64,000 nt of DNA from Microbacterium sp. (GTDB taxonomy: Bacteria > Actinomycetota > Actinomycetes > Actinomycetales > Microbacteriaceae): assembly GCA_017306415.1 (NCBI GenBank), contig JAFKIL010000003.1:186001-250000 (forward strand), read 5' to 3'. The notes beneath the pieces are model-generated. The model had not been told where the DNA came from. It ran no database searches and worked only from the letters and a program-made list of their open reading frames with translations. The position numbers were made by a program, and so were the translations under genes. This document shows, piece after piece, positions 2,432 through 59,382 of the stretch. The first letter of the stretch is position 1; every line of letters starts with the position of its first letter.

Positions 2432-4435
2432 ATGCGGGCTCTTCGAGCGCTGGGGCTCACGGCGGCGCTCGCCGCGGTGTTCTCCGGCGCGGCCATGGCG
2501 GCGTCCGCGACCGACCCGGTGACGCTCGGGTCCGCGCACGTCGTCGACGAGGCCGGAGTGCTCTCGAGCAGTCAGCTGGCCGCCGCCGAGCAGCGGACGC
2601 AGAAGCTCTCGGACGACACCGACGTCGACCTGTGGGTCGTCTACGTCCCCACGTTCACGAACCCCTCCAGCAGCGAGGACTGGGCCAACCAGACCGCCCG
2701 GGACAACGGCCTCGGGCCGAACCAGTACCTGCTGGCGATCGCGGTCGACTCGCGCCAGTTCTATCTGTCGGGCGACTCGTCGGGTCCGGTGTCGGGCGAC
2801 CAGCTCTCGACGATCGAACAGCAGCACATCCAGCCGCGCCTCGCCGCCGACGACTGGGCAGGGGCGACGACGGCCGCCGTGGACGGGCTGAACGCCGCCG
2901 TCGGCGGAGGGGCCGGAGGCGGCGGCGGGTTCGTGTGGGCGATCGTCGGAATCCTCGTCGTCATCGCGATCGTCGTCATCATCGTGGTCGTCGTGCGGTC
3001 GCGACGTCGCAACGGTGTGCCGGGGGGCGCGCAGACCGGCGGCCCGCCGCTCGAGCAGGTCGACACGGACGAGCTCGCCCGCCGCGCGAGCTCCGCACTC
3101 GTTCAGACGGATGACGCCGTCCGCACCAGCGACCAGGAACTGGAGTTCGCGCGCGCACAGTTCGGCGACGCCGCCACGACCGAGTTCGCCGCGGCGCTCG
3201 CGCAGGCGAAGGCGAACCTCGATCAGGCGTTCGCGCTGAAGCAGCAGCTGGACGACGCGGTCAAGGACAGCGAAGAGGAGACCCGCGCCTGGAACGCGCA
3301 GATCATCGATCTGTGTGAGCGGTCCAATCAGAGCCTCGACGAGAAGGCCGCCGCATTCGACGACCTCCGCAAGCTGGAGCAGAACGCTCCCGAGGCCTTC
3401 GCGCGGGCACAGCAGGAGCGTGCCGCTGCAGCCTCCGGAGTCGACACCGCCGCGCAGCGTCTCACGACCCTCTCGGCCTCGTACGCGCCGGAGGCGCTCG
3501 CCACCGTCGCCGACAACGTCGAGCAGGCGAAGCAGCGCATCGCCTTCGCCGATCAGCAGCTCGCCGCCGCCGAGGGCGCCATCGGCTCGGGAGACGGCGG
3601 GCAGGCGGCGGTCGGCATCCGCGCGGCGGAACAGGCGATCGCCCAGGCCAAGCTCCTCGAGGATGCGGTCGACAAGCTCGGCACCGATCTGGCGGAGGGC
3701 GAGAAGAGCGTCGCTGCGCTGATCCAGGAGCTCGAGGCGGATGTCGCGGCGGGATCCGCTCTTCCCGACCCGGACGGCCGCGTCGCCGCGGTGATCACGA
3801 CCGTGACGACGCAGCTGACCGCGGCGAAGGCCGACCTCGCAGGTCCCGCACGGCATCCCCTGGCGACCCTCAAGGGACTCGAGGCCGTGAACGCGCAGAT
3901 CGACGGCGTGGTCCAGGGCGCGCGGGACGCCGCGGCGCAGGAGCAGCGCAGCCGTCAGATGCTGGGTCAGGTGATCATGCAGGCCCAGGCACAGGTCTCC
4001 GCCGCGGAGGACTACATCAGCGCCCGCCGCGGGGCCATCGGTGCGGAGGCCCGCACGCGTCTCGCCCAGGCCGGCGCCGAACTCGTCCAGGCCCAGCAGC
4101 TGCAGGCCTCGGATGCCACCACGGCGATGCAGCACGCCCAGCGCGCGGACCAGCTCGCCGGGCAGGCTCTCCAGTCCGCCCAGGGCGACGTCGGGGAGTT
4201 CGAGGGCGGCGGCATCGGCGGCATGTTCGGCGGCGCCCCCGCGCGCGGCGGCTCCGGTGGCGGGATGCTGGGCGCCGTGCTGGGCGGCATCGTGATCAAC
4301 TCGCTCCTCTCCGGCGGGGGTGGCGGCGGCGGCATGTTCGGCGGCGGCTCCGGCGGCGGGGGCGGCGGCGGTTTCAGCCCCGGCAGTTTCGGCGGCGGCG
4401 GGACGCGCAGCCGCCGAGGGGGTGGTCGATTCTGA
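2432..4435 (+). CDS. TPM-domain membrane protein with long coiled-coil and Gly-rich tail
   Basis: 667 residues. Order seen: signal peptide (about 1-23, ending AMA), extracytoplasmic TPM domain (about 30-145, with VVDEAGVLSSSQ typical of TPM_phosphatase/YgcG domains), a Gly-rich linker, one membrane helix (about 167-189), a basic stop-transfer stretch (RSRRR), an Ala/Gln/Glu-rich helical region of about 370 residues likely to form coiled coils, and a Gly/Phe/Met-rich tail ending SRRGGGRF. TPM domains are linked to membrane-protein repair or phosphatase-like activity, but the role of this architecture is unknown. AAGGGGG precedes the ATG. The pspA gene follows after 74 nt, probably in one operon. 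Its cytoplasmic half is homologous to the protein at 58027-59382. Confidence 0.88.
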   Translation: MRALRALGLTAALAAVFSGAAMAASATDPVTLGSAHVVDEAGVLSSSQLAAAEQRTQKLSDDTDVDLWVVYVPTFTNPSSSEDWANQTARDNGLGPNQYLLAIAVDSRQFYLSGDSSGPVSGDQLSTIEQQHIQPRLAADDWAGATTAAVDGLNAAVGGGAGGGGGFVWAIVGILVVIAIVVIIVVVVRSRRRNGVPGGAQTGGPPLEQVDTDELARRASSALVQTDDAVRTSDQELEFARAQFGDAATTEFAAALAQAKANLDQAFALKQQLDDAVKDSEEETRAWNAQIIDLCERSNQSLDEKAAAFDDLRKLEQNAPEAFARAQQERAAAASGVDTAAQRLTTLSASYAPEALATVADNVEQAKQRIAFADQQLAAAEGAIGSGDGGQAAVGIRAAEQAIAQAKLLEDAVDKLGTDLAEGEKSVAALIQELEADVAAGSALPDPDGRVAAVITTVTTQLTAAKADLAGPARHPLATLKGLEAVNAQIDGVVQGARDAAAQEQRSRQMLGQVIMQAQAQVSAAEDYISARRGAIGAEARTRLAQAGAELVQAQQLQASDATTAMQHAQRADQLAGQALQSAQGDVGEFEGGGIGGMFGGAPARGGSGGGMLGAVLGGIVINSLLSGGGGGGGMFGGGSGGGGGGGFSPGSFGGGGTRSRRGGGRF

Positions 4436-4509
4436 CCTCGCCGGACCGACCACGCCGTTCCGCGGCATCCACCAGACCTCCCCTCACACATCGATAGGAA
4501 GGAAAGCAG

Positions 4510-5295
4510 ATGGCAAAGCAATCCATCTTCGGCCGCATCTCGACTCTCGTCCGAGCGAACATCAACGCGATGATCGACTCGGCGGAGGACCCGCAGAAGA
4601 TGCTCGACCAGCTCGTCCGCGACTACACCAACAACATCGCGGACGCCGAATCGGCGATCGCGGAGACGATCGGCAACCTCCGCCTGCTCGAGCGCGACCA
4701 CGCCGAGGACCTGCAGGCCGCGACGGAGTGGGGCAACAAGGCCCTCGCTGCCAGCAAGAAGGCCGATGAACTGCGGCGGGGCGGCAACACCGCCGACGCC
4801 GACAAGTTCGACAACCTCGCCAAGGTCGCGCTGCAGCGCCAGATCTCCGCGGAGAACGAGGCGCGCGCGGCGGAGCCGCAGCTCGCCGCCCAGAACGAGA
4901 GCGTCGAGAAGCTCAAGGCCGGCCTCAACGGCATGAAGGAGAAGCTCCAGCAGCTCAAGTCGAAGGCGGCCGAGCTCGTCGCCCGGCAGAAGACCGCGGA
5001 GGCGCAGAACAAGGTCGCCGACGCTGTGAAGTCGATCGACGTCATGGACCCGACGAGCGACCTCGGCCGCTTCGAGGAGAAGATCCGCCGCCAGGAGGCG
5101 CTCGCGCAGGGCAAGCAGGAGCTCGCCGCATCGAGCCTCGACGCCCAGTTCAACCAGCTCGACGACGTCGGCGAGCTGACCGAGGTGGAGGCCCGCCTCG
5201 CGGCGCTCAAGGCTGGCGGATCGCCGGCGGTCGCGGGTGCTCCGGCACAGGGCGCGATCGACGCTCCCTCGGCGCCGTACACGCCGGGCTCCTGA
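4510..5295 (+). CDS. pspA: PspA/IM30 family protein
   Basis: 261-residue, almost entirely alpha-helical phage-shock protein A / ESCRT-III-like protein that binds stressed inner membrane. The N-terminal amphipathic segment (FGRISTLVRANINAMIDSAE) is the membrane-binding helix of the family, followed by DPQKMLDQLVRDY and long charged helices. The C-terminal 25 residues are a Pro/Ala/Gly tail. A strong AGGAAGG ribosome site precedes ATG 4510. Placement directly after a TPM-domain membrane protein recurs in actinobacteria and suggests joint membrane maintenance. A hairpin follows the stop. Confidence 0.92.
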   Translation: MAKQSIFGRISTLVRANINAMIDSAEDPQKMLDQLVRDYTNNIADAESAIAETIGNLRLLERDHAEDLQAATEWGNKALAASKKADELRRGGNTADADKFDNLAKVALQRQISAENEARAAEPQLAAQNESVEKLKAGLNGMKEKLQQLKSKAAELVARQKTAEAQNKVADAVKSIDVMDPTSDLGRFEEKIRRQEALAQGKQELAASSLDAQFNQLDDVGELTEVEARLAALKAGGSPAVAGAPAQGAIDAPSAPYTPGS

Positions 5296-5304
5296 ACCCG
5301 ACGG

Positions 5305-5335
5305 CGAGGACCGGTCCTGCGGCGTCCGGTCCTCG
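5305..5335 (+). terminator. Putative rho-independent terminator after pspA
   Basis: Perfect 10-bp inverted repeat CGAGGACCGG / CCGGTCCTCG with an 11-nt loop, starting 10 nt after the pspA stop. No U-tract follows, which is common in high-GC actinobacteria. The next gene starts about 60 nt later, so read-through is possible. Confidence 0.5.
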
Positions 5336-5396
5336 TCGCCCGTACGACAGCCGCACACACCCGGACGGCGACGTCCTCATCCCCGGAGGTGCGCCC

Positions 5397-6224
5397 ATGG
5401 CTCGATTCCTCGTCGTCGCGCAGTGGCAGGGCTCCTCGTCCTCCCGCGCGATGCAGCTCATCGACGGCGCCACGGCGATCGCCGGCGACCTCCCCCGCGC
5501 GGCCTGCACGACCGTGGACGTGCCGATGGAGGCCGGTGAGTCGCTCGACACCGGCGTGCGGCGGATGAGCGCGCTGCAGCAGGTCGCGCGCGCCCAGCTG
5601 GAGGCGCTCGCCGGTCTCGACGAGACGGTGGTCACCGTCGGCGGCGACGCGGGGGTCGCGACGACCTCCGCCCTCGCCGCGGTCGGGGCGGCGCGCGGCG
5701 AGCCGGACGCCGGCAGCGTCGTGGTCTGGTTCAGCTCGCACGCGGCGATGCACGACGTCTCGTCCGCCCCCGACGGCGCTTACGCGGAGATGGCGGCCCG
5801 CGCCCTCGTCGACGACGCCGCGCCGCGTCCGTCCGACATCGGCATCGCGCCGGACCGCCTCATCCTGGCCGGTGTGCGCGTCATCGCCTCCGCGGAGGCC
5901 GAGGCGATCGAGCGCCTGGGCGTGGGGATCGTCACCGCCGACGAGCTCACCCCGGATGCGATCGCGGCGGCGATCGCCGAGCGCTCGGCGTCGGCCGTCT
6001 ACATCCACGTCGACCTCGACGTCCTCGACCCCGCCGCCATCTCGGGGGTGAGCGATCCGGAGCCCTTCGGCCCCGACGCCGCAACCGTGATCGCGTGCAT
6101 CGCGGCGGCACGCGGATCGGCACCCTACCTGGGCGGCGCGATCACGGAGTTCTCCCCCTCTTCGCCCGCGGCGGCCATCGACGACCTCGGCGTCATCCTC
6201 CGGCTCGTCGGAGCACTCGCGTGA
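5397..6224 (+). CDS. Arginase/ureohydrolase-fold protein with degenerate metal site
   Basis: 275 residues with the ureohydrolase fold. The third family motif is intact (HVDLDVLDP, residues 204-212, with D206 and D208 as metal ligands). The first motif reads VGGDAG (81-86) where arginases have GGDH, so the His ligand is Ala85. The second reads WFSSHAAMHD (111-120) where arginases have DAHxD, so both Asp ligands are replaced (S113, A117) and only H115 remains. A two-manganese site as in arginase or agmatinase therefore looks impossible. It may be a pseudoenzyme or use another chemistry. The stop overlaps the GTG start of the next gene by 3 nt. It lies after the TPM-pspA pair. Confidence 0.78.
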   Translation: MARFLVVAQWQGSSSSRAMQLIDGATAIAGDLPRAACTTVDVPMEAGESLDTGVRRMSALQQVARAQLEALAGLDETVVTVGGDAGVATTSALAAVGAARGEPDAGSVVVWFSSHAAMHDVSSAPDGAYAEMAARALVDDAAPRPSDIGIAPDRLILAGVRVIASAEAEAIERLGVGIVTADELTPDAIAAAIAERSASAVYIHVDLDVLDPAAISGVSDPEPFGPDAATVIACIAAARGSAPYLGGAITEFSPSSPAAAIDDLGVILRLVGALA

Positions 6225-6676
6225 GCCCGATCGCGACCCCGCCGTCGGATTGGCGGGAGGCCGCCGAGCGAGCCGTCGCGCGCGGTCGGCGGATCGACCG
6301 CTACCTCCCCCGCATCCTGCTCGACTCCCCCCTCAGCCGGGCCGGCTATTGGTACGGGACCGCCGTCGGCTGGGTGTGGGGCGGCCTGTGGAGCACCGGG
6401 CGCGTCGAGCGACGTGAGGGGATGTGGGTCTTCCGGGGCATGCCCGCGCGCACCTTCGCCCGCGGCGGCGTCTGCGTGGGCGGGTGCTACCTCACCGGCG
6501 ACGAGGTGGTGACGGCACGCGTCCTCGCCCACGAGGCCGTGCACGCGCGCCAGTGGCAGCGGTACGGCTTTCTCATGCCGGTGCTCTACGCCCTCGCCGG
6601 GCGCAACCCGCTGCGCAACCGCTTCGAGATCGAGGCGGGGCTGGAGGACGGCAACTACGTGCCGCGCGGAGCGTAG
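6221..6676 (+). CDS. Small HExxH-motif protein of unknown function
   Basis: 151 residues with no family name I can assign firmly; similar actinobacterial proteins are often labelled hypothetical. It contains LAHEAVHARQWQRYG, giving H104-E105-x-x-H108, the zinc-ligand pattern of gluzincin-type metallopeptidases and of DUF4157-like domains. A hydrophobic segment at about 43-58 may touch the membrane. GTG 6221 overlaps the stop of the arginase-fold gene by 4 nt, implying translational coupling. Whether it hydrolyses anything is unknown. Confidence 0.72.
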   Translation: MSPIATPPSDWREAAERAVARGRRIDRYLPRILLDSPLSRAGYWYGTAVGWVWGGLWSTGRVERREGMWVFRGMPARTFARGGVCVGGCYLTGDEVVTARVLAHEAVHARQWQRYGFLMPVLYALAGRNPLRNRFEIEAGLEDGNYVPRGA

Positions 6677-6677
6677 C

Positions 6678-7226
6678 TCACCCGCGCTGCACCCCGAGAC
6701 CCACGCGACGGATCTGCCGTCCGAGCGAGATCACCACCGCGAGCGGCACGACGATCCACACCAGGTTCGGAAGGATCGCGACCATCAGGAAGCCCACGAT
6801 GTCGCCGCGCTCGATCGACTGCCGTGTCATCTCCAGTCCGCTCGAGGCCTCGACGAGGAAGTAGATCACGGTCTTCCAGAGCGTGGCGACCGACACGATC
6901 AGGCCGACGACCACTCCCGACCACCGTCGCGCGTGGAAGAGCACCCACACGAGCACGACGACCTCGATGAGGTTCGCCCAGCTCTGCGCGCTGCCGAAGG
7001 CGTCGAACCCGGCGTAGCGGTGATCGAAGGACGAGTAGAACACGTGTCCCGGCCACAGCCACGCCATGGGTCCGCCCTTGTGCGAGATCGCACCGAGCAG
7101 TTCGTAGCAGGCGTCGTAGGTCTGGATGATGGCCGTGATCACGAACCACACCACGATCCAGCGGGGCAGGCGCAGGTCGCGGTCCGCGACGACCGGCGCG
7201 GCATCCCTGGTGAGAGCATCCGTCAT
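6678..7226 (-). CDS. Polytopic membrane protein, possibly EXPERA/emopamil-binding-like
   Basis: 182 residues with about four or five hydrophobic segments (about 22-40, 78-97, 102-122, 143-166) and a YDACYELLGAISHKG stretch between helices 1 and 2. The helix pattern and conserved acidic/aromatic residues recall the EXPERA domain of emopamil-binding proteins, but this is a weak resemblance. The gene ends 1 nt after the stop of the convergent HExxH gene, so the two share no intergenic space. Confidence 0.65.
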   Translation of the reverse strand: MTDALTRDAAPVVADRDLRLPRWIVVWFVITAIIQTYDACYELLGAISHKGGPMAWLWPGHVFYSSFDHRYAGFDAFGSAQSWANLIEVVVLVWVLFHARRWSGVVVGLIVSVATLWKTVIYFLVEASSGLEMTRQSIERGDIVGFLMVAILPNLVWIVVPLAVVISLGRQIRRVGLGVQRG

Positions 7227-7289
7227 GGTCGACAGGCTATCGACCGTTCGACGTGTCGCGGCCGCTCGCGCGGCGAGGTCGGGGCACCG

Positions 7290-7760
7290 CTAGTGCGCGG
7301 CGAGCCGGAATCGCTCGGGCGTGTGCAGCGAGTCCAGCCCACGACCGTGGCGCTCGGCCAGGTGGTCGACGATCTCCGCCGTGCCGAGGAATCCGCCCAG
7401 CAGGAAGATCCGGGTCTCGTCGTCGTCGGCGCACAGCATCTCGTCCGCCCACGCGGTGACGGCGCGCGCGAGCGCACGGCCCTGCACGCACCCGCGGCGG
7501 GAACCGGGGTCGCCATTGCGGGCAGACCTGTCGAGCCATGTGACCGTCATGCGACCGGGCGCCTCGATCGCGCCGATCCACGAGGCATCGGGGATCTCGA
7601 CGAAGACGCGGCCCGTCGAGCAGATGGGCAACGTCGCCAGCAGGCCCTCGAGCTCCGCGAGAGATGTCTCGTCCGCCGCGACGAGGTGCTGCACCAGGGG
7701 TCGGCGGGACGCCCGGCGGCTGCCCGTCGGGATCGCACGGGTCTGAGTGGGCGATGACAT
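7290..7760 (-). CDS. Stand-alone SIP (siderophore-interacting) domain protein
   Basis: 156-residue protein resembling the C-terminal NAD(P)H-binding half of siderophore-interacting ferric reductases (SIP, PF04954). It has HLVAADETSLAELEGLLATLP, the segment that begins that domain, and FLLGGFLGTAEIVDHL near the end. The N-terminal FAD-binding domain is absent, so it must act with a partner or be non-catalytic. ATG 7760 is preferred; an upstream in-frame ATG at 7784 lies inside the iron box. The iron box predicts repression by IdeR/DtxR when iron is sufficient. Confidence 0.75.
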   Translation of the reverse strand: MSSPTQTRAIPTGSRRASRRPLVQHLVAADETSLAELEGLLATLPICSTGRVFVEIPDASWIGAIEAPGRMTVTWLDRSARNGDPGSRRGCVQGRALARAVTAWADEMLCADDDETRIFLLGGFLGTAEIVDHLAERHGRGLDSLHTPERFRLAAH

Positions 7761-7782
7761 GACGACTTCGACTATACCCGCC

Positions 7783-7801
7783 ATAGGGTTGCCTAACCTT
7801 C
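7783..7801 (-). promoter_or_regulatory. Putative IdeR/DtxR iron box upstream of the SIP-domain gene
   Basis: On the minus strand the site reads GAAGGTTAGGCAACCCTAT, which matches the DtxR/IdeR consensus TTAGGTTAGGCTAACCTAA at 14 of 19 positions, including AGGTTAGGC in a row. It ends 23 nt before ATG 7760, where a repressor would block transcription or initiation. The iron-related product supports the call. Confidence 0.65.
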
Positions 7802-7816
7802 GTGTTGGCGGTGAGA

Positions 7817-8539
7817 TCAGTCCGCGGCGACGAGCACCCGTCGCAGCTCCACGATCTCGTCCTCCGCAAGACCGTGGGCGCGGAGATAGTCCGCGGGCGA
7901 GCCGAAGCGAGAGGTCAGGTCGTCGAGGAGGGCGCGCATGACGGACGCGGGCGACCGACTCGCGAGCTCCTCGAGGTGGACGGCCTCCGGATGCAGGAGG
8001 CGCAGCTGCCGCACGACCTCCCGGTTGCGCCATTCCGGCAGGAGCGCCTCGGTGCGCGCGTAGTCCGCGACGACGGCGTCCTGGTCCACCCCGGCCGCGG
8101 CGAGCGCGAGCGCGACCGTCACCCCTGTGCGGTCCTTGCCCACCGTGCAGTGGATGAGGACGGGCTGCTCGGCCAGAAGTCCGCGCACCGCCTCCACCAC
8201 CGATGCCGCGGAGTCGTCGACGAGCGCCCGGTACATCTCGGCCAGCGACATGTCGCGCTCGAAGAAGGATGCGACCGAGCCGAGGAAGAGCGGCACGTGC
8301 TGCGTCGTCAGGCCGAGCGCCTCCGTCCGGCTGGGAGCATGGGCGCGTTCGTCGTCTGCGCGCAGGTCGATCACGCGGCGGATGCCGAGGCGCTCGATCG
8401 CCGCCAGGCCGTGCGCGTCCAGCTGCGCCAGGTTGCCCGACCGGTACAGGACACCGTCGCGGGTCCGCCCGGATCCGGCGGGAAGTCCGCCGACATCGCG
8501 GAAGTTCACCGCGCCCGGGACGAGTGGTGCGTCGGTCAT
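7817..8539 (-). CDS. Tyrosine-protein phosphatase (PTP/LipA-like family)
   Basis: 240 residues. The P-loop HCTVGKDRTG (H130 to G139, nucleophile C131) is the CX5R(T/S) signature of the tyrosine phosphatase superfamily. The N-terminal NFRDVGG and YRSGNL motifs place it in the Y_phosphatase3 group found in actinobacteria (MptpB-like). Substrates could be phosphotyrosine, phosphoserine or phosphoinositides. It overlaps the upstream AhpD-like gene by 4 nt, so the two are cotranscribed. Confidence 0.9.
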   Translation of the reverse strand: MTDAPLVPGAVNFRDVGGLPAGSGRTRDGVLYRSGNLAQLDAHGLAAIERLGIRRVIDLRADDERAHAPSRTEALGLTTQHVPLFLGSVASFFERDMSLAEMYRALVDDSAASVVEAVRGLLAEQPVLIHCTVGKDRTGVTVALALAAAGVDQDAVVADYARTEALLPEWRNREVVRQLRLLHPEAVHLEELASRSPASVMRALLDDLTSRFGSPADYLRAHGLAEDEIVELRRVLVAAD

Positions 8540-9012
8540 GCCGGGGCCGCGACGCGCGGCGGCACCGGATAGCGCCCGGCGATGGCGACCCGGTTGAAGG
8601 CGTTGATCGACACGAGGATCCAGCTCAGCGCGACGTACTCCTGCTCCGAGAGGATGCCTCCGACATGGTCGTAGACGCGGTCCGGGATGCCGTCCTCGTG
8701 GATGAACGTGAACGCCTCCGTGAGCTCGAGGGCGGCGCGCTCGCGGTCGGTGAAGACGCCGGATTCCTGCCAGGTCGCCAATTGGGCGATCACGTCGACG
8801 TCGAGGCCCGCCGCGACCGCGCGATCGACGTGCACGCGGACGCAGTAGGCGCACCCGTTCAGCTGCGACGCGTGGATCTGCACGAGTTCCTTGAGCCGGT
8901 CGTCGATGCCGGCGTCGGCCGCGATCCCGCCCACGGTCTTCGCGAGCGCGTCGAGGGCCTTGAAGGCCGGAGGCGCGGACCGGGAGAGGTGGACACGTCG
9001 CTCGTCGCTCAT
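8536..9012 (-). CDS. Carboxymuconolactone decarboxylase (AhpD-like) family protein
   Basis: 158-residue all-helical protein of the CMD/AhpD superfamily. It has the redox signature C54-x-x-C57-x-x-x-H61 (GCAYCVRVH), which in AhpD supports peroxidase-coupled dithiol chemistry. The preceding helix LKELVQIHASQLNG is also typical. Probably a thiol-dependent peroxidase or reductase helper; substrate unknown. First gene of a two-gene operon with the tyrosine phosphatase. Confidence 0.88.
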   Translation of the reverse strand: MSDERRVHLSRSAPPAFKALDALAKTVGGIAADAGIDDRLKELVQIHASQLNGCAYCVRVHVDRAVAAGLDVDVIAQLATWQESGVFTDRERAALELTEAFTFIHEDGIPDRVYDHVGGILSEQEYVALSWILVSINAFNRVAIAGRYPVPPRVAAPA

Positions 9013-9078
9013 ATGTTCAGCCTATCGACGGCCCCCGACCGCGGCGCGGGTGGGGCGGGAGAGGGGAAGAATGGTCGC

Positions 9079-10020
9079 GTGAGCGATGACGCGTTCGACG
9101 AATTCTCCTTCCTCCCCCTCCAGTCCGCCGATCTCGGCCTCGGCGGTGCCGTGCCCCGCGCGGAGCGGCTGTCGCTCGGACTCCCCGACGGGCGGACGCT
9201 GTCCGCGCTCCGGTTCGGCGACGGGCCGCCGACCGTCACGTTCCTGCACGGCGCCGGCTTGAACGCGCACACGTGGGACACCACGATCCTCGCGCTCGGT
9301 CTCCCGGCCCTCGCGATCGACCTCCCAGGACACGGCGACTCGTCCTGGCGGGACGACGCCGCCTACGTGGGGCCGGTGCTCGCGCCCGACGTCGCCGCCG
9401 GCATGGACGCCTGGACCGACTCCCCGCAGCTGCTGGTCGGCCAGTCCCTGGGCGGGCTCACGGCGGCCGCGGTCGCCGCGCAGCGACCGGATCTCGTCCG
9501 CGAGCTCGTCGTTATCGACATCACCCCCGGCATCGATCCGAACGGCGGGGCGAGCCAGATCCGCGAGTTCTTCGCCGGACCCACGGACTGGGCGAGCCGC
9601 GACGAACTCGTCGACCGCGCGCTGAGCTTCGGCCTCGGCGGCACGCGCGCAGCCGCGGAGCGCGGGGTGTTCCTCAACTCGCGCGTGCGCCCGGACGGCC
9701 GCGTGGAGTGGAAACACCACTTCGCCCGCATCGCGAACGCCCTCGCCGCCGACCCCGCGGCCGCGGCCGCGGCATCCGCCCGGCAGGACGCGATCTCGTC
9801 GGTGCTCTCCGCCGGCGGCTGGAGCGACCTCGCCGCCGTGACGGCGCCGCTCACGCTGATCCGCGGCGACCACGGCTACATCACCGCGGACGAGGCGGAC
9901 GACTTCGGAAGGCGTCTGCCCGAGGCATCCATCGTCGTGGTCCCCACCGGTCACAACGTGCAGGAGGAGATCCCGGGAGAGCTCGGCCGCATGCTCCGGG
10001 AGCGCGCAAGGAAGGGTTAA
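9079..10020 (+). CDS. Alpha/beta hydrolase
   Basis: 313 residues, GTG start. Features of the alpha/beta-hydrolase fold: oxyanion region LHGAG (about 56-60), DLPGHGDS (81-88), nucleophile elbow GQSLGG (S123), acid region after the beta-strand TLIRGDHG, and the catalytic His in PTGHNVQEE near the C-terminus. Cytoplasmic, no signal peptide. Substrate cannot be read from the sequence. Divergent from the AhpD-like gene with a 66-nt gap. Confidence 0.88.
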   Translation: MSDDAFDEFSFLPLQSADLGLGGAVPRAERLSLGLPDGRTLSALRFGDGPPTVTFLHGAGLNAHTWDTTILALGLPALAIDLPGHGDSSWRDDAAYVGPVLAPDVAAGMDAWTDSPQLLVGQSLGGLTAAAVAAQRPDLVRELVVIDITPGIDPNGGASQIREFFAGPTDWASRDELVDRALSFGLGGTRAAAERGVFLNSRVRPDGRVEWKHHFARIANALAADPAAAAAASARQDAISSVLSAGGWSDLAAVTAPLTLIRGDHGYITADEADDFGRRLPEASIVVVPTGHNVQEEIPGELGRMLRERARKG

Positions 10021-10229
10021 CGCTTCTGTTTCGTTTCACGGTAACGCGGCACTGCCCCCTCCCCCGCGGACCCTAGGCTGTTGTTGCACCGAGTTCATCA
10101 CGCGAGTTCGCTGCGCGCACCGACGCGCCCGTGCCCGCCGTCAAGGACTCCCTCACACCGATAACACCCCGGCACGACTCTTCCGCTCCGGCCGCTCACG
10201 ATGCCGCCCGAGCCTGCGAAAGGATCCTC

Positions 10230-11738
10230 ATGCTCCGCCGCACCGCACTCGCCGCGACCGCGCTCGCGGCCGCCGCCGCTCTGGCCCTGACCGCGTGCAC
10301 CGGAGGCGGGGGCACCACGCCGACGAGCACCGGCAAGGCCGACCCGAATGGCTCCGTCGCCATCCGCCTGGTCGCCGAGCCCGGCAACCTCGACATCCGT
10401 CAGACGGCCGGGTCGGCCCTCGACCAGATCCTGATCGACAACGTGTACCAGGGGCTCGTGGCCCGCACCCCCGATCAGAAGATCGTGCCGTCGCTGGCGA
10501 GCGACTTCACCGTGTCGGACGACCGTCTCACCTACACGTTCACCCTCCGCGACGGCGTGACGTTCGATGACGGCCAGGCGCTCACCCCGCAGGACGTGGT
10601 GTGGTCGCTGCAGCAGCACAAGGCGAACGCCGCGTGGGCGGACGCCGCCACGCTGTCGCGGGTCGCGTCCGTCGCGGCCGACGGGCAGAAGATCACCGTC
10701 ACGCTCAGTGAGCCGGACTCCCAGCTGCTGTGGAACCTGACCGGCCGGGCGGGCACGATCCTCAAGAAGGGCGACACCGTCGACTACAAGACGGCGGCCA
10801 ACGGCACCGGGCCGTTCGTCCTCAAGAGCTGGAAGCAGGGCGACTCGATCACGTTCGAGCGGAACGACAAGTACTGGGGTGCCAAGGCCAAGGTCAAGGA
10901 GGTCGTCTTCGACTACATCCCGGACAACCAGGCGGCCCTGAACGCGGCGAAGGCGGGCGAGCTCGACGTCGTCACCGGCTTCGACGCCACCCTCAAGGAG
11001 CAGATCGAAGCAGGCGGCGACTACCGGCTGGTGCTCGGGAAGTCGACGGACAAGGGCACCCTGGCGATGAACAGCACCCACCAGTACCTCAGCGACAAGC
11101 GCGTCCGCCAGGCGATCCGCCAGGCGATCGACAACAAGGCCATCGTCAAGGCGATGGGCTCAGGAACGACGATGTACGGCCCGATCCCGGCCCTGGACCC
11201 GGGATACGAGAACCTCTCCAGCGTGGCGCCCTACGACCCCGAGGCGGCCAAGAAGCTGCTCGCGGCGGCCGGCGCGAAGGACATCACCCTCACGCTCACG
11301 ATCCCGTCCTTCTACGGCACGACGATCCCGCAGATCCTCGTCTCGGACCTGAACGCCGTCGGAATCACGCTGAAGGTGAACTCCGTGGAGTTCAGTGCGT
11401 GGCTGAACGACGTCTACATCAACAAGGACTACGACCTCAGCTTCGTCCTGCACACCGAGGCCCGCGACTTCGGGAACTGGGCGAATCCCGACTACTACTT
11501 CACGTACGACAATGCGAAGGTGCAGGACCTGTACCAGAAGTCGCTCTCGGCGACGAGCGACGGCGAAGCCGCCGACTACCTCAAGCAGGCGGCGAAGATC
11601 GTGTCGGAGGACATGGCCGCGGATTGGCTCTACAACGGCGCCTCGGTCGTCGCCGTCGGCACTAACATCACCGGTATGCCCTCGATCAACGTGAACGAGC
11701 GCCTCAACCTCGCCGAGCTCGCCAAGAGCAAGGGGTGA
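10230..11738 (+). CDS. ABC transporter substrate-binding lipoprotein (peptide/nickel family, SBP_bac_5)
   Basis: 502 residues. Type II signal peptide with lipobox LTAC (C23 lipidated), then an SBP_bac_5 fold: DNVYQGLVARTPDQKIVPSL near the N-terminus, YTFTLRDGVTFDDGQ, NGTGPFVLKSW, and VRQAIRQAIDNKAIV. It captures oligopeptides or related solutes outside the membrane. AGGA lies 6 nt before the ATG. The gene follows a 209-nt leader region and is first in a five-gene operon with two permeases and two ATPases joined by 4-nt overlaps. The exact ligand is unknown. Confidence 0.93.
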   Translation: MLRRTALAATALAAAAALALTACTGGGGTTPTSTGKADPNGSVAIRLVAEPGNLDIRQTAGSALDQILIDNVYQGLVARTPDQKIVPSLASDFTVSDDRLTYTFTLRDGVTFDDGQALTPQDVVWSLQQHKANAAWADAATLSRVASVAADGQKITVTLSEPDSQLLWNLTGRAGTILKKGDTVDYKTAANGTGPFVLKSWKQGDSITFERNDKYWGAKAKVKEVVFDYIPDNQAALNAAKAGELDVVTGFDATLKEQIEAGGDYRLVLGKSTDKGTLAMNSTHQYLSDKRVRQAIRQAIDNKAIVKAMGSGTTMYGPIPALDPGYENLSSVAPYDPEAAKKLLAAAGAKDITLTLTIPSFYGTTIPQILVSDLNAVGITLKVNSVEFSAWLNDVYINKDYDLSFVLHTEARDFGNWANPDYYFTYDNAKVQDLYQKSLSATSDGEAADYLKQAAKIVSEDMAADWLYNGASVVAVGTNITGMPSINVNERLNLAELAKSKG

Positions 11739-16616: not shown

Positions 16617-16620
16617 AGCC

Positions 16621-46642: not shown

Positions 46643-46671
46643 GCCCCTCGGCGAGCGGTTCGGGCTGCGGG

Positions 46672-47344: not shown

Positions 47345-47593
47345 ATGGATTGGCGCGACAAAGCCGCCTGCCTGACCGTCGACCCAGAGCTCTTCTTCCC
47401 CGTGGGGAACACGGGGCCTGCGGTCGATCAGATCGAGAAGGCCAAGGCCGTCTGCGCCCGGTGCACCGTCACCGAGGTCTGCCTGCAGTACGCCCTCGAG
47501 ACCGGCCAGGACTCGGGTGTCTGGGGTGGTCTGTCCGAGGACGAGCGCCGCGCACTCAAGCGCCGCGCCGCCCGCGCGCGCCGCGCGTCCTGA
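47345..47593 (+). CDS. whiB1: WhiB1-type iron-sulfur transcriptional regulator
   Basis: 82 residues. Four 4Fe-4S cluster cysteines C9, C37, C40 and C46, then the G(V/I)WGG turn (58-62) and a basic C-terminal AT-hook-like tail (RRAALKRRAARAR-type). The sequence MDWRDKAACLTVDPELFFPVGNTG is very close to WhiB1/WblE, which binds sigma region 4 and responds to nitric oxide. Ribosome site AAGGAG. Convergent with pdtaS, exactly as whiB1-pdtaS in M. tuberculosis. Confidence 0.95.
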   Translation: MDWRDKAACLTVDPELFFPVGNTGPAVDQIEKAKAVCARCTVTEVCLQYALETGQDSGVWGGLSEDERRALKRRAARARRAS

Positions 47594-47603
47594 CTCGCGC
47601 CGG

Positions 47604-49097: not shown

Positions 49098-49106
49098 CAG
49101 ACCAGC

Positions 49107-50402: not shown

Positions 50403-51037
50403 TCGGCACCGCCCGTCGGCACCACCGACACGGCCCAGTCCGCGGCGATCGCCGCGAGCGTATCGGCCACGTCGGCCCGTGGGATCACGAGCTCCAACGA
50501 GGCGGATCCACCGCCGAGCATCGAGTCGTCCTTGGCGACCTTCGCCACGACGGCATCGGAGACCAGGATCTTCGGGGTGCCGTAGGAATGCTGCTCCTCC
50601 GGCTCAGCCGCCCAGACATCGACCGTCGAACCGGGTCGGATCGTGGTCGGCACGTCGGCCGTACTCTCGACCACGACGGTCGTGGTGGCACGTGAGCGCG
50701 CCGTGACCAAGGCGTCGTGCGGAACGAGCTCGCCCGCGGGGATCGTGCGGTCGGCGACACGGCCGGAGAGATCGGCACCCGAGCGCACGTAGGTCTCCGC
50801 GGTCCGGCCGAGCGCGACATCGACCACGGCGAAGTCGTCGGCCGTCACCCTGTCGCCGGGAACGATCGTGTGCGCGGCCGCCAAGACGGGCGTGGTCTGC
50901 CGCGCGACCGCGACGACGGCCCACACCCCCACGACGGACGCCACGATGAGCACGATGCCGAGCACGAAGCGCAGGTCGGCCCACCGAGCGGGACGACGTC
51001 GCTTCGGCTCGGACTGCGGGCTGTCGAAGACGCTCAT
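50399..51037 (-). CDS. SAF-domain membrane-anchored protein (CpaB-like)
   Basis: 212 residues. Cytoplasmic basic N-terminus, one membrane helix (about 25-45), then an extracytoplasmic SAF domain (AAAHTIVPGDRVTADDFAVVDV, SGRVADRTIPAGELVPHDAL) as in CpaB/RcpC pilus proteins and flagellar FlgA. Shorter than CpaB. ATG 51037 has no competitor of similar quality. First gene of the run that ends in pdtaS. Confidence 0.85.
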   Translation of the reverse strand: MSVFDSPQSEPKRRRPARWADLRFVLGIVLIVASVVGVWAVVAVARQTTPVLAAAHTIVPGDRVTADDFAVVDVALGRTAETYVRSGADLSGRVADRTIPAGELVPHDALVTARSRATTTVVVESTADVPTTIRPGSTVDVWAAEPEEQHSYGTPKILVSDAVVAKVAKDDSMLGGGSASLELVIPRADVADTLAAIAADWAVSVVPTGGAE

Positions 51038-51123
51038 GCAGACCATCGTGCCGGAGGCCGATGACGGGCTCCGGGCGTTATCCACAGGGCCCTCTCGCGG
51101 ACCACCCGTCCTGTGGCCGGGGC

Positions 51124-51129
51124 GATAAT
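51124..51129 (+). promoter_or_regulatory. Putative -10 for a leaderless HTH gene transcript
   Basis: GATAAT ends 6 nt before ATG 51136 and no ribosome site is present. Upstream, CCACAGG (51082-51088) and CCTGTGG (51110-51116) form a 7-bp inverted repeat that could be an operator; its left arm is part of a perfect DnaA-box-like TTATCCACA (51078-51086). Confidence 0.45.
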
Positions 51130-51135
51130 GATCAC

Positions 51136-51417
51136 ATGCCCGAATCTTCCGTGCCCGCGGTGCGCCTGGTCGCCCCCGCCTCGGTGGCGGAGGCACTCGG
51201 CGTGGAGGTCGATGAGGTGATCGCCCTCGTCCTGGAGGGCCGGCTCCGCGGGCGTCGCGTCGGGTCTCCGGCGCAGTGGCGCGTCGAGGAGTCGAGCGTC
51301 GCGGACTACCTCGACGACGCGGCCGAAGAGGCCCGGCGCATGGCGCTGTGGCGCCAGTCGAACGCCGCCAGCTTCCCCGAGCTGTGGGGCACGGGCGCGG
51401 TCCGCAATCCCGACTGA
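51136..51417 (+). CDS. Small excisionase-like helix-turn-helix DNA-binding protein
   Basis: 93 residues. Helix-turn-helix/winged region LVAPASVAEALGVEVDEVIALVLEGRLRGRRVG with PAQWRVEESSVADYLDD, the pattern of MerR-like excisionase (HTH_17) domains that recognise DNA as dimers or oligomers. The C-terminus is a short acidic-aromatic tail. Divergent from the CpaB-like gene (98 nt apart), so it may regulate that operon. Exact family (BldC, Xis) not resolved. Confidence 0.8.
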   Translation: MPESSVPAVRLVAPASVAEALGVEVDEVIALVLEGRLRGRRVGSPAQWRVEESSVADYLDDAAEEARRMALWRQSNAASFPELWGTGAVRNPD

Positions 51418-51423
51418 AGGCGC

Positions 51424-52032
51424 TCAGGCGAGGACGGCGGCCGCGTCGAGGCGCACCCACGCGACGGCGCCGAACGGGACGACCCGGACCCCGGTGACAT
51501 CGGCGGAACGCCGCGGCGCCCCCGGGTCGTGGAGAGCGATGTCGAGATGATCGTGGAGAGCCCGGTCGATCGTCCCCGACAGTGCGCGCCCCCCGACGAC
51601 GTGAATCGTCACCGGCACCCGTCGCCGCGCGAGGTCACGGAGCACGAACCCGAGCGACATGCGCTCGGCGAGGCGCGGCCGCGGCGAGGATCCGTCGGGC
51701 CGGGCGCTGGCCAGCGCGTCCGTGAGGGGGAGCCCGATCGTCGTGACCGCCACGAGCGGCAGCAGCGCGGCTCCCCCGCCTCCCCCGACGGCGTCGAGAC
51801 CCGCCCAGTCCGCGCCGACGGCGGTCACCTGCGCCACGAGGACGGTCCCGTCCGTCAGCTCGAACGCGGACGGCACCGCTGCCGGACGCTGCGCCAACAT
51901 GCGCAGCCGTTCCTGGAGCGGCAGCCGAGACAGCCGGAGCCGCTCCGACTCGGAATCGAGTGCGGCCCGCTCCGCCTCCCACTCGGAGGCGAGCTGACCC
52001 TCGAGGTCTTCGAACAGGCGATCCCAGCGCAC
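51424..52032 (-). CDS. Conserved hypothetical protein, beta-rich with N-terminal coiled segment
   Basis: 202 residues from GTG 52032. A Glu/Arg-rich N-terminal helix (LEGQLASEWEAERAALDSES, about 9-28) precedes a beta-rich body with repeating small-residue strands (VAQVTAVGADWAGLDAVGG, RVPVTIHVVGGRALSGTIDRA), reminiscent of an Sm/SH3-type barrel pair. No family recognised. Probably a cytosolic accessory protein; the gene is convergent with the HTH gene and divergent from the Rv3235-family gene. Confidence 0.7.
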   Translation of the reverse strand: MRWDRLFEDLEGQLASEWEAERAALDSESERLRLSRLPLQERLRMLAQRPAAVPSAFELTDGTVLVAQVTAVGADWAGLDAVGGGGGAALLPLVAVTTIGLPLTDALASARPDGSSPRPRLAERMSLGFVLRDLARRRVPVTIHVVGGRALSGTIDRALHDHLDIALHDPGAPRRSADVTGVRVVPFGAVAWVRLDAAAVLA

Positions 52033-52182
52033 TCCGCGACAGTACGCGATTGAACACGCGTGTCGCGCGCTATCCACAAGAACGAGTGGTTTTCCGTTTC
52101 GCGGCCTCCCACCGTGCTCTACTGGTGCCCGGCTGGGGAGCACACACGCCCATCAGGGGCGTCCTTTCCGGAGAGGGGCGAA

Positions 52183-52614
52183 GTGGCGATGACATCATCG
52201 GGTCGATGGCGCGCGATATGGGACCGGGACGAGGAGCTCGCGCAGTTCGCGCCGCAGCGCACGCCTGCCGCGGCGCTACCGGATCCCGAGCCGCTCCTGC
52301 GGAACCTGACGCAGGGCGTCCTCGAGGCGCTCGCTGGCGTCCGCGACGTCGGCCAGCTCGCGCGCTGGATGAGCGCCGAGGCCTTCCGCGCACTGGTGAC
52401 GCGGGCGAACCTGGCCACGAGGGCGCGCAGTGCCCGCGGCACTCCCGCGACGCGACCCGTGCACGCGATCCTGTCTGTGCACCGCATGTCGCCGACTGAC
52501 GACGTCGTCGAGGCCGTCGTGATCGTCGAGGGTCCCGCTCGCACACGCGCGCTCGCGATCCGACTCGAAGGGATGGATCGGCGCTGGCGCGCGACATCGC
52601 TCGCGCTGCTCTGA
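52183..52614 (+). CDS. Rv3235 family protein
   Basis: 143 residues from GTG 52183, which has GGAGAGGGG 5 nt upstream. The family (Rv3235-like) is found in most actinobacteria beside secA and has no known role. Seen: an N-terminal low-complexity segment, LLRNLTQGVLEALAGVRDVGQLARWMS (about 40-66) likely helical, then a beta-hairpin-rich C-terminus VVEAVVIVEGPARTRALAIRLEG resembling an NTF2/wHTH-like fold end. Confidence 0.8.
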   Translation: MAMTSSGRWRAIWDRDEELAQFAPQRTPAAALPDPEPLLRNLTQGVLEALAGVRDVGQLARWMSAEAFRALVTRANLATRARSARGTPATRPVHAILSVHRMSPTDDVVEAVVIVEGPARTRALAIRLEGMDRRWRATSLALL

Positions 52615-52684
52615 CCGCACCATCCGACGCGGAGATCTCCCTCCGAGCTCTGTCAGGCTCATCCACCATTTCTGGTGGTTGACG

Positions 52685-53032
52685 TCAGGCGTCGTCTATG
52701 AGCGCGAGGAGCTTCTTCAGCGCGTCCTCCACCTCGGCGTGATCGTATTGGCCGGCCCGGCTCTCCGCGGCGATGACCCCAGAGCGGTGCACGCGGCGAA
52801 AATCGCCGTAGGGGAACGAGTACGCCTGCTTCGTCTCGGGATTCTCGTCGCGGTCGACGCCCAGGTGCCAGTGCGAATAGGCGGTCCATCCGTCGCTCTC
52901 GATGAAGCCGTTCTCCTCGTCGGCCGTCGGCGCGGCCTCCGACCAGTCGTCCCTCTCGTCGCGGACGACCTTGCCCTCGCGGATCAGCGCCCGAGCCTGT
53001 TCGTATGCGGGTCGATTCAATTCGATAGCCAT
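52685..53032 (-). CDS. Conserved hypothetical protein
   Basis: 115 residues. Cytosolic, acidic, no Cys. Features: N-terminal helix YEQARALIREGKVV, a middle with many aromatics (GWTAYSHWHLGVD) and a C-terminal helix HAEVEDALKKLLALIDDA. Homologues occur widely in actinobacteria without a function. ATG 53032 is used; an upstream ATG at 53056 lacks support. It stands alone. Confidence 0.7.
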   Translation of the reverse strand: MAIELNRPAYEQARALIREGKVVRDERDDWSEAAPTADEENGFIESDGWTAYSHWHLGVDRDENPETKQAYSFPYGDFRRVHRSGVIAAESRAGQYDHAEVEDALKKLLALIDDA

Positions 53033-53091
53033 GGCGTCGACCGTAGTCGGCACCATGTCGCGCGGGAGGGGGTTGACGTGACGGCCTGAGC

Positions 53092-54318
53092 CTATTGACG
53101 GTAGGACGACAGGAAGTTGCCTATGCGCTCCACCGCGTCGGCGAGCACGCGGGGTTCGGGCAGCGTCACGATGCGGAAGTGGTCGGGCGTGGGCCAGTTG
53201 AACCCGGTGCCCTGCACCACCAGCACGTGCTCGGCGACGAGCAGGTCGTAGACGAAGCGGGCGTCGTCGTGGATCTCGTGCACGTTCGGATCGAGACGGG
53301 GGAAGGCGTACAGCGCCCCCTGCGCCTTGTAGCAGGACACTCCGGGGATCGCCTCGAGCCCCGCCCAGGCGATGTCCCGCTGCTCGTGCAGACGGCCGCT
53401 CGGGGCGATGAGCGCATCGATGGACTGGACGCCCGAGAGCGCCGCCTGGACGGCGTGCTGGGCCGGCACGTTGGGGCAGAGGCGGGTCGACGCGAGGAGG
53501 TTGATGCCTTCCAGGAAGCCCTTCGCGTGCTCCTTCGGGCCGGTGATGACGAGCCATCCGCTGCGATAACCGGCGACGCGATAGGTCTTCGACAGCCCGT
53601 TGAAGGTGAGGCACAGCAGGTCGGGCGCCAGTGTCGCGAGATTGATGTGCTCGGCCTCATCGAAGAGGATCCGGTCGTAGATCTCGTCGGCGAGGAGCAG
53701 GAGCGAGTGCTCCCGGGCGATGTCGACGATCCCCTGCAGGGTCTCGCGCGTGTAGACCGCACCGGTGGGGTTGTTCGGGTTGATCACGACGATCGCCTTC
53801 GTGCGCGGACCGACCTTCGCGCGGATGTCCTCGAGGTCGGGCTGCCAGTCGCCGTCGGGATCGCATCGGTAATGGACCGGCGTGCCTCCGCCGAGGCTCG
53901 TCATCGCGGTCCACAGGGGATAGTCCGGCGACGGGATCAGCACCTCGTCGCCCTCGTCGAGCAGCGACTGCATCACCATGGTGATCAGCTCCGACACCCC
54001 GTTGCCGAGGAACACGTCATCGGGGTCGAAGGGCGGGAATCCGGCGATCTCCTCGTAGCGGGACACGACCGCTCGACGGGCGGACATGATCCCGCGGCTG
54101 TCGCTGTAGCCGTGGGCGTAGGGGACGGCTTCGATCATGTCCCGCACGATCTGGTAGGGCGCCTCGAATCCGAAGATCGCCGGGTTCCCGGTGTTGAGCT
54201 TCAGGATCGTGTGTCCGTCAGCCTCCAGCTGGCCTGCCTCCGCCAGTGCCGCACCACGGATCTCGTAGAGGACGTCGCGGAGTTTGCTCGACTGATCGAG
54301 AGGACGAAGGGGGCTCAT
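53092..54318 (-). CDS. PLP-dependent aminotransferase, AlaA/AspC-like
   Basis: 408 residues, fold type I aminotransferase class I/II. LNTGNPAIFGFEAP, INPNNPTGAVYT, ADEIYDRILFD and the PLP lysine in FNGLSKTYRVAGYRSGW are the key motifs. Sequence resembles YfbQ/AlaA, which make alanine from pyruvate and glutamate. Start ATG 54318. Located just downstream of secA on the same strand with 51 nt between, probably its own gene. Confidence 0.92.
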   Translation of the reverse strand: MSPLRPLDQSSKLRDVLYEIRGAALAEAGQLEADGHTILKLNTGNPAIFGFEAPYQIVRDMIEAVPYAHGYSDSRGIMSARRAVVSRYEEIAGFPPFDPDDVFLGNGVSELITMVMQSLLDEGDEVLIPSPDYPLWTAMTSLGGGTPVHYRCDPDGDWQPDLEDIRAKVGPRTKAIVVINPNNPTGAVYTRETLQGIVDIAREHSLLLLADEIYDRILFDEAEHINLATLAPDLLCLTFNGLSKTYRVAGYRSGWLVITGPKEHAKGFLEGINLLASTRLCPNVPAQHAVQAALSGVQSIDALIAPSGRLHEQRDIAWAGLEAIPGVSCYKAQGALYAFPRLDPNVHEIHDDARFVYDLLVAEHVLVVQGTGFNWPTPDHFRIVTLPEPRVLADAVERIGNFLSSYRQ

Positions 54319-54369
54319 CGGTTCAGGATATCTCCGGCCTCGTCAGGCCAATGGCCCGCCCCTGGACCG

Positions 54370-57177
<2,808 letters not shown>

Positions 57178-57319
57178 GGAGCATCTCCATCTGTCGGTGT
57201 GCGCGCCTTCTGACGCGCTGCGCGGGCACGGGTCAGGCACCTGCGCCCAGGCATACGCCTCCATGTTATCCGTCCGTGACCTTGGAGTGGCCTGGGGAAC
57301 CCGCTCCTGAACGTTTCCC

Positions 57320-57348
57320 GGTATGTATATATTCGGAATGCACATACC
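57320..57348 (+). promoter_or_regulatory. Putative PadR operator overlapping the padR promoter
   Basis: Inverted repeat GGTATGT (57320-57326) and ACATACC (57342-57348), 7-bp arms with a 15-nt centre that contains TATATT (57328-57333), a good -10. PadR-type sites commonly contain ATGT/ACAT half-sites. Binding here would silence padR and the downstream gene. Confidence 0.5.
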
Positions 57349-57371
57349 CCGCATGCACCCGAGGAGACCGC

Positions 57372-57980
57372 ATGTCCGTCAAGCAGAGCCTGCTGGCCAT
57401 CCTGGACCAGGGCCCGTGCTACGGATACCAATTGCGCACCGAGTTCGACCGCCGCACCGGTTCGACGTGGCCGCTGAACGTCGGCCAGATCTACAACACG
57501 CTCGACCGCCTGGAACGCGATGGGCTCGTCACCAAGGGCGACGCGGACGCGCAGGGACACATCTACTTCGAGATCACCGATGCCGGACGCGCGGCCGTCC
57601 GGACGTGGCTGGCCTCCCCCGTGCAGCGCGCAGCGGGCACCCGCGACGAGCTGACCATCAAGCTCACCGTCGCGATGACGCTTCCGGGCGTGGATGCCGC
57701 GGAGGTCATCGAGGACCAGCGCTCCGCGTCGGCCGCCCGCCTGCGGGCCCTGCGAGAGCAGAGTGCCGATGCTGCGCAGGACCCCGAGGATCTCGCGCGC
57801 TCCCTCGTCGATGACGCCCTCCGCTTCGCCGCCGAAGCGGAGGTGCGCTGGCTCGACCACGTCCGCGCGGTGCTGGCCTCGCGTACGCGGGACAGCGTTG
57901 CTCTGGAGCTCGCCACCGACAGTCCCCGGCGCGGCCGGCCGGCATCCGCGACCGCGCCCGCCGGCGGGCGCATCGCCTGA
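57372..57980 (+). CDS. PadR-family transcriptional regulator (with Vir C-terminal domain)
   Basis: 202 residues. N-terminal winged-helix PadR domain: [23 protein letters not shown], then [17 protein letters not shown] (recognition helix and wing, about 37-53). The C-terminal half is helical and rich in Ala/Glu (PadR_C/Vir-like dimerisation). GAGGAG precedes the ATG. Followed after 46 nt by the coiled-coil protein, which is its likely target; divergent from secA. Confidence 0.93.
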
Positions 57981-58026
57981 GGCGAACCCGGGGCGGCCGC
58001 TCAGCCAGCGATCGTAGGATCGGGAC

Positions 58027-59382
58027 ATGGCGGGATTCTGGGGCAGGCGGGCACGCGAGCACGAGGCGGCGACGGCGCAGGACACGGAGCTCGCGCGACG
58101 CGCGGACCGCGCCCTCGTCGCCGCAGACGAGCGCATCCGGCTGACCACGGACGAACTCGCGTTCGCCGAAGCGGAGCTCGGCAACGGGCCGACGTCGGAT
58201 CTGCGCGCTGCGGTGGCCGCGGTGCGCCACCACCTCGCCGAGGCCTTCCAGCTCAACCAGCTCAACCACGACGAGATCCCCGACACGGCGGAGGAGCTCC
58301 GCACCCGCAACGCCCGGATCGTGCAGCTGTGCGAGTGGGCGGAGGAGTTGCTGGACGATCGGACCGCGGCGCTCGCCGGGCCGATCGAGCGGGCACGCCG
58401 GGCGCCGGAGATCCTCGCGGGCGTCGGCGCGGATGCCGCGCGCCTGCGCGGCCGCATCCCCGAGGCCCGCGCCACCGTCGAGCGGCTCCACGCACGCTAC
58501 TCCGCCGAGGCGCTGCGACAGATCGCCACCAACCCGGCGGAGGCCGATCAGCTGCTCGGCTTCGCGGAGCACAGCGCGGGCGTCGCCGCCCGCCGACGCG
58601 AGTCCGGCCAGCGCGAGCAGGCGAACGTCGCGCTCGAGGCGGCGACGGAGTCGGTTCGACGTGCCGGCGCTCTGCTCGATGCGGTCGAGAACTTCGAGAT
58701 CGAAGCCCTGCGCGCGGAATCGACGCTGACCGCCATCATCGAGGACTCCCGCGGCGATCTCCTGGCCGTGCGCCGCGAGCCGGCGTCACCGGCGGTCGCC
58801 GCCGCGTCCGCGGATCTCGAGGCCGCACTCGCCTCCCTGCCGGCCGCGGGGGTCAACACCGACCCGTTCACCCACCTCACCCGCCTTCGTGAGGCCAACA
58901 CGGCGCTGGACGACGCGATCGCCGCGGCTCGCGAACGAGCCGCCCGGCCGCTGCCCACGGCGGAGCAGGTGCGCCACGCGATCGACGACGCCGACCGTCA
59001 GCTCGCGGTGCTCCGCGACGTCATCGGCGGTCACCGCGGATGGATCGGCGCGGACGCCCGTACCCGGCAGGCCGAGGCGGAGCGCATCCGTGCCGACCTG
59101 GACGGCCTGATCGGCCACGACGCCGCCGTGGGCGCCCGTGACGTCGCCGAGGATCAGCGCGAGGGGGCGATGGCCCTGGCCCGACGCGTCGGGTTCCTGG
59201 CGAGCGAGGCGCTGCAACTCGCGCAGCGCGACATCGACTCCTCGCGACCGCAGGGCCCGCCCGACCAGGGCTGGGGCGGCTCGGGCTGGGGAGGCGGCGG
59301 GCGTCGCGGGGGCGGCGACGTCGCCACCGGCATCCTCGGCGGCCTCGTGATCGGCAGCATCCTCGACGGCATCTTCGACTGA
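58027..59382 (+). CDS. Cytosolic coiled-coil/Gly-rich paralogue of the TPM protein's C-terminal half
   Basis: 451 residues with no signal peptide or TPM domain. Aligns over its whole length with residues about 210-640 of the TPM protein at 2432: ELARRADRALVAADERIRLT versus ELARRASSALVQTDDAVRTS; YSAEALRQIATN versus YAPEALATVADN; HRGWIGADARTRQAEA versus RRGAIGAEARTRLAQA; both end with Gly-rich repeats and GILGGLVIGSILDG versus AVLGGIVINSLLSG. Highly helical, long heptad-like Ala/Arg/Glu repeats. Placed behind padR. The cytosolic form may work with PspA-type membrane proteins; function unknown. A terminator follows. Confidence 0.85.
   Translation: MAGFWGRRAREHEAATAQDTELARRADRALVAADERIRLTTDELAFAEAELGNGPTSDLRAAVAAVRHHLAEAFQLNQLNHDEIPDTAEELRTRNARIVQLCEWAEELLDDRTAALAGPIERARRAPEILAGVGADAARLRGRIPEARATVERLHARYSAEALRQIATNPAEADQLLGFAEHSAGVAARRRESGQREQANVALEAATESVRRAGALLDAVENFEIEALRAESTLTAIIEDSRGDLLAVRREPASPAVAAASADLEAALASLPAAGVNTDPFTHLTRLREANTALDDAIAAARERAARPLPTAEQVRHAIDDADRQLAVLRDVIGGHRGWIGADARTRQAEAERIRADLDGLIGHDAAVGARDVAEDQREGAMALARRVGFLASEALQLAQRDIDSSRPQGPPDQGWGGSGWGGGGRRGGGDVATGILGGLVIGSILDGIFD

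Follow-up and report, generated by a model that had tools for sequence, protein, structure and literature searches.

In Bacillus subtilis, YdjH, a product of the pspA-ydjGHI operon, is described as a TPM protein (PMC11237479); it was reported to interact with PspA and with itself and to be the likely anchor of the PspA-YdjI complex, and PspA foci were reported to need both YdjG and YdjH (PMC8581546). How the Actinobacteria beyond those of the ClgR-PspA-PspM type hold PspA at the membrane is little known. The window analysed in this work, a stretch of 64,000 nucleotides (nt) from Microbacterium sp. (JAFKIL010000003.1, positions 186001-250000, forward strand; feature coordinates count from its first letter), encodes beside pspA a protein with a TPM domain and a transmembrane (TM) helix, as in YdjH. 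Unlike YdjH as described, this protein carries a helical rod of about 390 residues (hence TPM-rod in this work), and a free-standing paralogue of the rod is encoded in the same window. The identified neighbours also differ from those of pspA-ydjGHI: DUF3097 and an arginase-family gene, rather than an SPFH gene (YdjI) or YdjG. A further described relative is cg2496 of Corynebacterium glutamicum, whose N-terminal domain matched the TPM-rod family profile (E 3.3e-18; structure 2kpt holds that domain only); cg2496 was paired with rv2345 as unvalidated ZipA candidates (PMC3989709), and Rv2345 was listed as UPF0603, a probable phosphatase (PMC8562490).

TPM-rod and the free-standing protein were paralogues. 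Residues 214-628 of TPM-rod (2432..4435, + strand; 667 amino acids) aligned by BLASTP with residues 21-448 of the free-standing protein (58027..59382, + strand; 451 amino acids) with 137 of 433 positions identical (32%, E 6e-35), the alignment taking in both the Gly-rich tail and the hydrophobic motif at the C-terminus. Comparison of the profiles of both families by hhalign (alignments of 30 and 24 rows) gave a probability of 100 and an E value of 1.2e-81 over 421 columns. The rod of the TPM protein scored 122 bits against the free-standing protein deprived of its tail, 200 shuffles of the latter reached at most 24.3 bits and PspA 16.2, and the similarity is thus homology, not a product of helix or alanine bias. 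A search of the genome with the free-standing protein (E 0.001) matched only itself and TPM-rod, with no third member of the rod family at this threshold. These comparisons bore out the earlier note on this DNA, which had claimed that the cytoplasmic half of the TPM protein aligns with the free-standing protein through its length, tail and closing motif included; its placing of the TPM protein beside PspA and of a PadR regulator ahead of the free-standing gene agreed with the family matches (PF04012 and PF03551).

Both open reading frames were followed by BLASTP, hhalign and AlphaFold2, together with a family search for TPM-rod and a tree for the free-standing protein. The TPM domain of TPM-rod (residues 37-155; 2540..2896, + strand) matched PF04536 with an E value of 5.3e-22 and 78.6 bits, above the Pfam gathering score of 22.1, and matched solved TPM domains in fold (E 7.4e-6 to 1.9e-4). 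It is followed on the same strand by a TM segment (residues 159-194; 2906..3013; Kyte-Doolittle up to 3.78), by the helical rod common to both proteins (residues 206-592; 3047..4207; BLASTP, hhalign and model) and by a Gly-rich tail with a hydrophobic motif (4211..4432), read from the sequence and modelled with low confidence. The AlphaFold2 models of the free-standing protein (mean predicted local distance difference test score 88.9, from a 30-row alignment) and of TPM-rod (83.0, from a 24-row alignment) showed long helices in matching order and a low-confidence tail, and predict a shared fold, an elongated helical part of about 390 residues plus the Gly-rich tail. The rod matched no Pfam or NCBIfam model and had no clear solved relative in the PDB by sequence or fold search; the free-standing protein matched no Pfam family, and the one TPM match of the genome fell in the TPM-rod gene.

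Homologues from other genomes formed three branches. In an unrooted tree made by a quick method from 96 of 132 sequences (Microbacterium-type A thinned to every fourth row), TPM-rod (33 sequences), branch A (43, including the free-standing protein of the window) and branch B (20) were each split off by their own branch with a Shimodaira-Hasegawa-like approximate likelihood ratio of 99, and A and B together were likewise separated from TPM-rod; at 55 alignment columns conservation reached at least 70% in each of the three branches, with examples within residues 30-52, 73-85 and 341-351 of the free-standing protein. All 20 B proteins and 11 A proteins of other genera (L064-L074) were predicted to have a strong TM helix at the N-terminus, but the order-level A member L104 was not, and the Microbacterium-type A clade had a short MAGFWG-like start in its place. 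Since the helix is present, with few exceptions, in TPM-rod, in B and in the remaining A proteins, the anchorless form of A was probably derived by its loss, the order of domain losses in the family being conjectural in an unrooted tree. The C-terminal hydrophobic motif was retained in most A proteins and B lacked the Gly-rich tail. The description of the free-standing protein in the earlier note as having no membrane part held for its N-terminus, but its closing Gly-rich motif (residues 432-450; 59320..59376, + strand) was borderline hydrophobic (Kyte-Doolittle mean 1.86). The same note had opposed a membrane-bound to a soluble copy; the two proteins of the window do differ in this way at the N-terminus, but the opposition was too simple for a family in which membrane anchors are predicted both for B and for A from several other genera.

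Second A copies in tandem were seen in Agromyces (L046, L047, L048 and L050) and in genome G198 (L058/L087, the second copy being short and matched as two pieces); they had longer branches and no hydrophobic tail.

The two genes travelled together in Microbacterium: both were found in 34 of 36 genomes, the exceptions being 86% and 77% complete, and in all 33 genomes at least 90% complete. The earlier note had named as a refutation that carriers of one locus never carry the other, and this was not the case. Among 52 A-carrying genomes compared, 48 had a TPM-rod match; those without were G030 (77% complete), G071, G142 and G204.

The linkage of TPM-rod to PspA was also conserved. In the window, pspA (4510..5295, + strand; PF04012, E 1e-42, 146.6 bits against a gathering score of 33.9) starts 74 nt past the TPM-rod gene and was the single PspA/IM30 gene found genome-wide. 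Of the 33 TPM-rod loci fetched from the family and the order (chosen from search hits and neighbouring fetches, not at random), 30 had pspA 16-130 nt downstream on the same strand; in L139 it was 2.7 kb away, and in L143 and L144 there was none within the fetched stretch. A phylum-wide draw of 296 genomes gave 53 with a match, many of them to the TPM domain only, and pspA was beside 13 of the 25 rod loci fetched from it; three of the 13 (in G000, G035 and G039) also belonged to the 33-locus set.

Branch A was linked to PspA in the sister genus g36, called Leucobacter here for the identity of the A gene of L184 with that of L056 (Leucobacter weissii). A was present in 16 of 54 Leucobacter genomes and adjoined pspA in 15 of these 16 (12 behind pspA on the same strand, 3 divergent), with the order TPM-pspA-A in at least 10 genomes (nine by reading the loci, G594 by coordinates). 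The survey of gene neighbourhoods that the earlier note had called for thus gave support to its link of the free-standing protein with PspA, and A is, by the gene order in Leucobacter, a likely new part of the PspA membrane-stress system.

By analogy with YdjH, this gene order and the domain layout suggest that TPM-rod is a partner of PspA and A a second rod. We give about an even chance to the proposal that TPM-rod and A belong to one unnamed family of helical rods serving the PspA membrane-stress machinery, with TPM-rod anchoring PspA. TPM-rod would then probably be the membrane-integral receptor or anchor of PspA, like YdjH, with an extracytoplasmic TPM domain, one TM helix and a cytoplasmic rod that would grip PspA. 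A would be an old paralogue with rod and tail and no TPM domain, lacking also the N-terminal TM helix in the Microbacterium-type clade, and would be made from its own leaderless-type promoter; it would probably be another scaffold or adaptor that the same PspA uses, and not a competitor, and its hydrophobic tail may bring it into contact with the membrane; the trigger would be a membrane stress. The conserved neighbour TPM-rod and the rod paralogue of the Leucobacter pspA operon are in this way named candidates for the anchoring of PspA.

Several observations weigh against this proposal. Any match to the free-standing protein was found in 119 of the 199 genomes of the family draw, many with TPM-rod only, and A is not required, because many Microbacteriaceae genomes have a TPM-rod match without it; 23 of the 54 Leucobacter genomes had no rod match at all. 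Twelve of the 25 loci of the phylum draw lacked pspA in the fetched flank (seven of family f22, four of the five of f21, and G337), and for five of these (four of f22, and G337) the reading was extended by several kb in both directions, still without pspA. In the window itself, A lies 53.6 kb from TPM-pspA and has secA and hpf for neighbours, an arrangement shared by other Microbacterium loci, and the adjacency of A and pspA in Leucobacter may be due to a few ancestral insertions.

In favour of the proposal, five A carriers had PspA and no TPM-rod match: G071, G575 and G589, in which A was beside pspA, and G142 and G204, in which DUF3097, pspA and the arginase gene kept their order in the absence of the TPM gene, and TM-anchored A and B were encoded elsewhere. 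Genomes of this kind, with a free rod and no TPM-rod, let nature itself show which of the two modules is the important one. We advance only tentatively, and as less likely than not, that PspA is handled by the rod rather than by the TPM domain, so that a TPM-less rod could serve as the partner of PspA, or even replace the TPM protein in this role; if true, Actinobacteria would own interchangeable anchored and free rods docking an ESCRT-III-like protein, and PspA control would have a level that has not been described.

The promoter of the free-standing gene bears on a different explanation, that of the earlier note, in which a soluble partner under PadR control, induced by a ligand or by stress, competes with the membrane-bound copy. 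The gene of the PadR-family regulator (57372..57980, + strand; PF03551, E 6.5e-17) ends 46 nt ahead of the free-standing gene in the window, and among 66 distinct Microbacterium-type A loci the first upstream gene that could be recognised was PadR in 15, the others having secA (14), a DEAD-box helicase (12), an ABC permease (6), another A copy (5), pspA (2) or other genes (12). Besides Microbacterium, this set took in Agromyces, Leucobacter and further genera; it counted identical copies once, left aside the TM-type loci (L064-L074 and L093-L103) as well as L104, and included five tandem second A copies; L044 was short of upstream DNA. In several loci with a more distant PadR, helicase or MacB-like ABC genes lay between padR and A; PadR regulators are often accompanied by ABC genes. 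The free-standing gene has a conserved -10-type element of its own, TAGGAT (58015..58020, + strand, by comparison of homologues), ending 6 nt 5' of the start codon, from which expression by a leaderless-type promoter is predicted. Of 78 A genes, 76 had TANNNT, mostly as TAGGATC, at a distance of 5-7 nt upstream of the start codon (67 of them at exactly 6 nt), against a mean of 2.2 and a maximum of 7 in shuffled controls, which ignore relatedness; yet the bases flanking the element varied while the element stayed. It was present in all 15 PadR-adjacent A genes, including L106, entered as a miss among the 78 but with TAGGATC 7 nt before its likely ATG. In Mycobacterium tuberculosis, TANNNT is reported to be centred 7-12 bp before start sites, and roughly one gene in four to have its start site at the initiation codon itself (PMC3898074). 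The motif at the padR promoter (57320..57336, + strand), which overlaps one inverted-repeat arm, had its sole genome copy there at two mismatches or fewer. Given an element of its own whatever the position of PadR, an unconserved adjacency and a motif confined to padR, control of A by PadR was not supported; we hold the explanation very improbable and padR probably a neighbour, not part of the rod/PspA system. A neighbouring regulator can mislead, the gene order of relatives and the promoter element at the start codon arguing here against the link.

The 78 genes included only three Leucobacter loci, and 14 more were analysed separately. Among the 14 of 16 Leucobacter A genes with a settled start (L189 and L196 were left over), TANNNT was missing in eight, all of them behind pspA on the same strand, and present in six: the three divergent genes, one away from pspA, and L061 and L194 (a different hexamer), both behind pspA. 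Joining the pspA operon would leave such a loss of the own element of A.

Two further explanations leave PspA in a minor role. EzrA consists of a TM helix and a helical-bundle rod, an arrangement that branch B and most A proteins outside Microbacterium share, and the rods could accordingly be scaffolds of division or envelope growth in the style of EzrA or ZipA, with PspA a mere client or neighbour. The TPM model was weakly similar to the EzrA cytoplasmic domain 4uy3 (Foldseek probability 0.72, target TM-score 0.61, E 3.2), cg2496, whose 2kpt domain matches, figures with rv2345 as a possible, unvalidated ZipA counterpart (PMC3989709), and pspA was not nearby in several lineages. We nevertheless consider this reading rather unlikely: EzrA had no significant sequence or fold match to the rod family, the 4uy3 match included, and was not among the 50 matches listed for the free-standing model, while pspA neighbours most TPM loci of the family and order and A sits by pspA in Leucobacter. 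The TPM protein might instead assist the assembly of membrane complexes as a chaperone, with PspA and A as auxiliaries, since Psb32, which assists photosystem II assembly, is among the TPM relatives of solved structure (8c7i) and a survey of the phage shock protein system suggests a chaperone-like role (PMC11237479); a chain of the mycobacterial respiratory supercomplex was also among the solved relatives, but with E above 0.04. However, the alignments show no TPM domain in branches A and B, and the five genomes without a TPM-rod match have kept A; we find such a role improbable.

The surroundings of the two genes in the window showed some minor features. A possible -10 element of the TPM-pspA transcript, TAGACT (2387..2392, + strand), precedes TPM-rod, and TAGACTC was seen before several other TPM genes, judged by eye and with no control. 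Between 54370 and 63938, padR and the free-standing gene lie between secA and hpf, comF, lpqB and an mtrB-like kinase, and the secA and hpf flanks recurred across many Microbacterium loci (the names of these five genes, of the DEAD-box helicase and of the MacB-like ABC genes were given by eye from translations).

Other forms of the rod were seen elsewhere. L143 (G033) and L144 (G004) were second, divergent TPM-rod paralogues of two Microbacterium genomes, and both had one more hydrophobic stretch close to the C-terminal end. L168-L170, from family f21 (genomes of 8-10 Mb), matched the TPM-rod profile only from about the TM segment onward, and are apparently TPM-less TM-rod forms outside this family. 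Ten of the B genes (L108-L112, L116, L122 and L124-L126) adjoined a conserved gene, in most cases divergent, whose product of about 1250-1330 residues is ATPase/helicase-like by eye.

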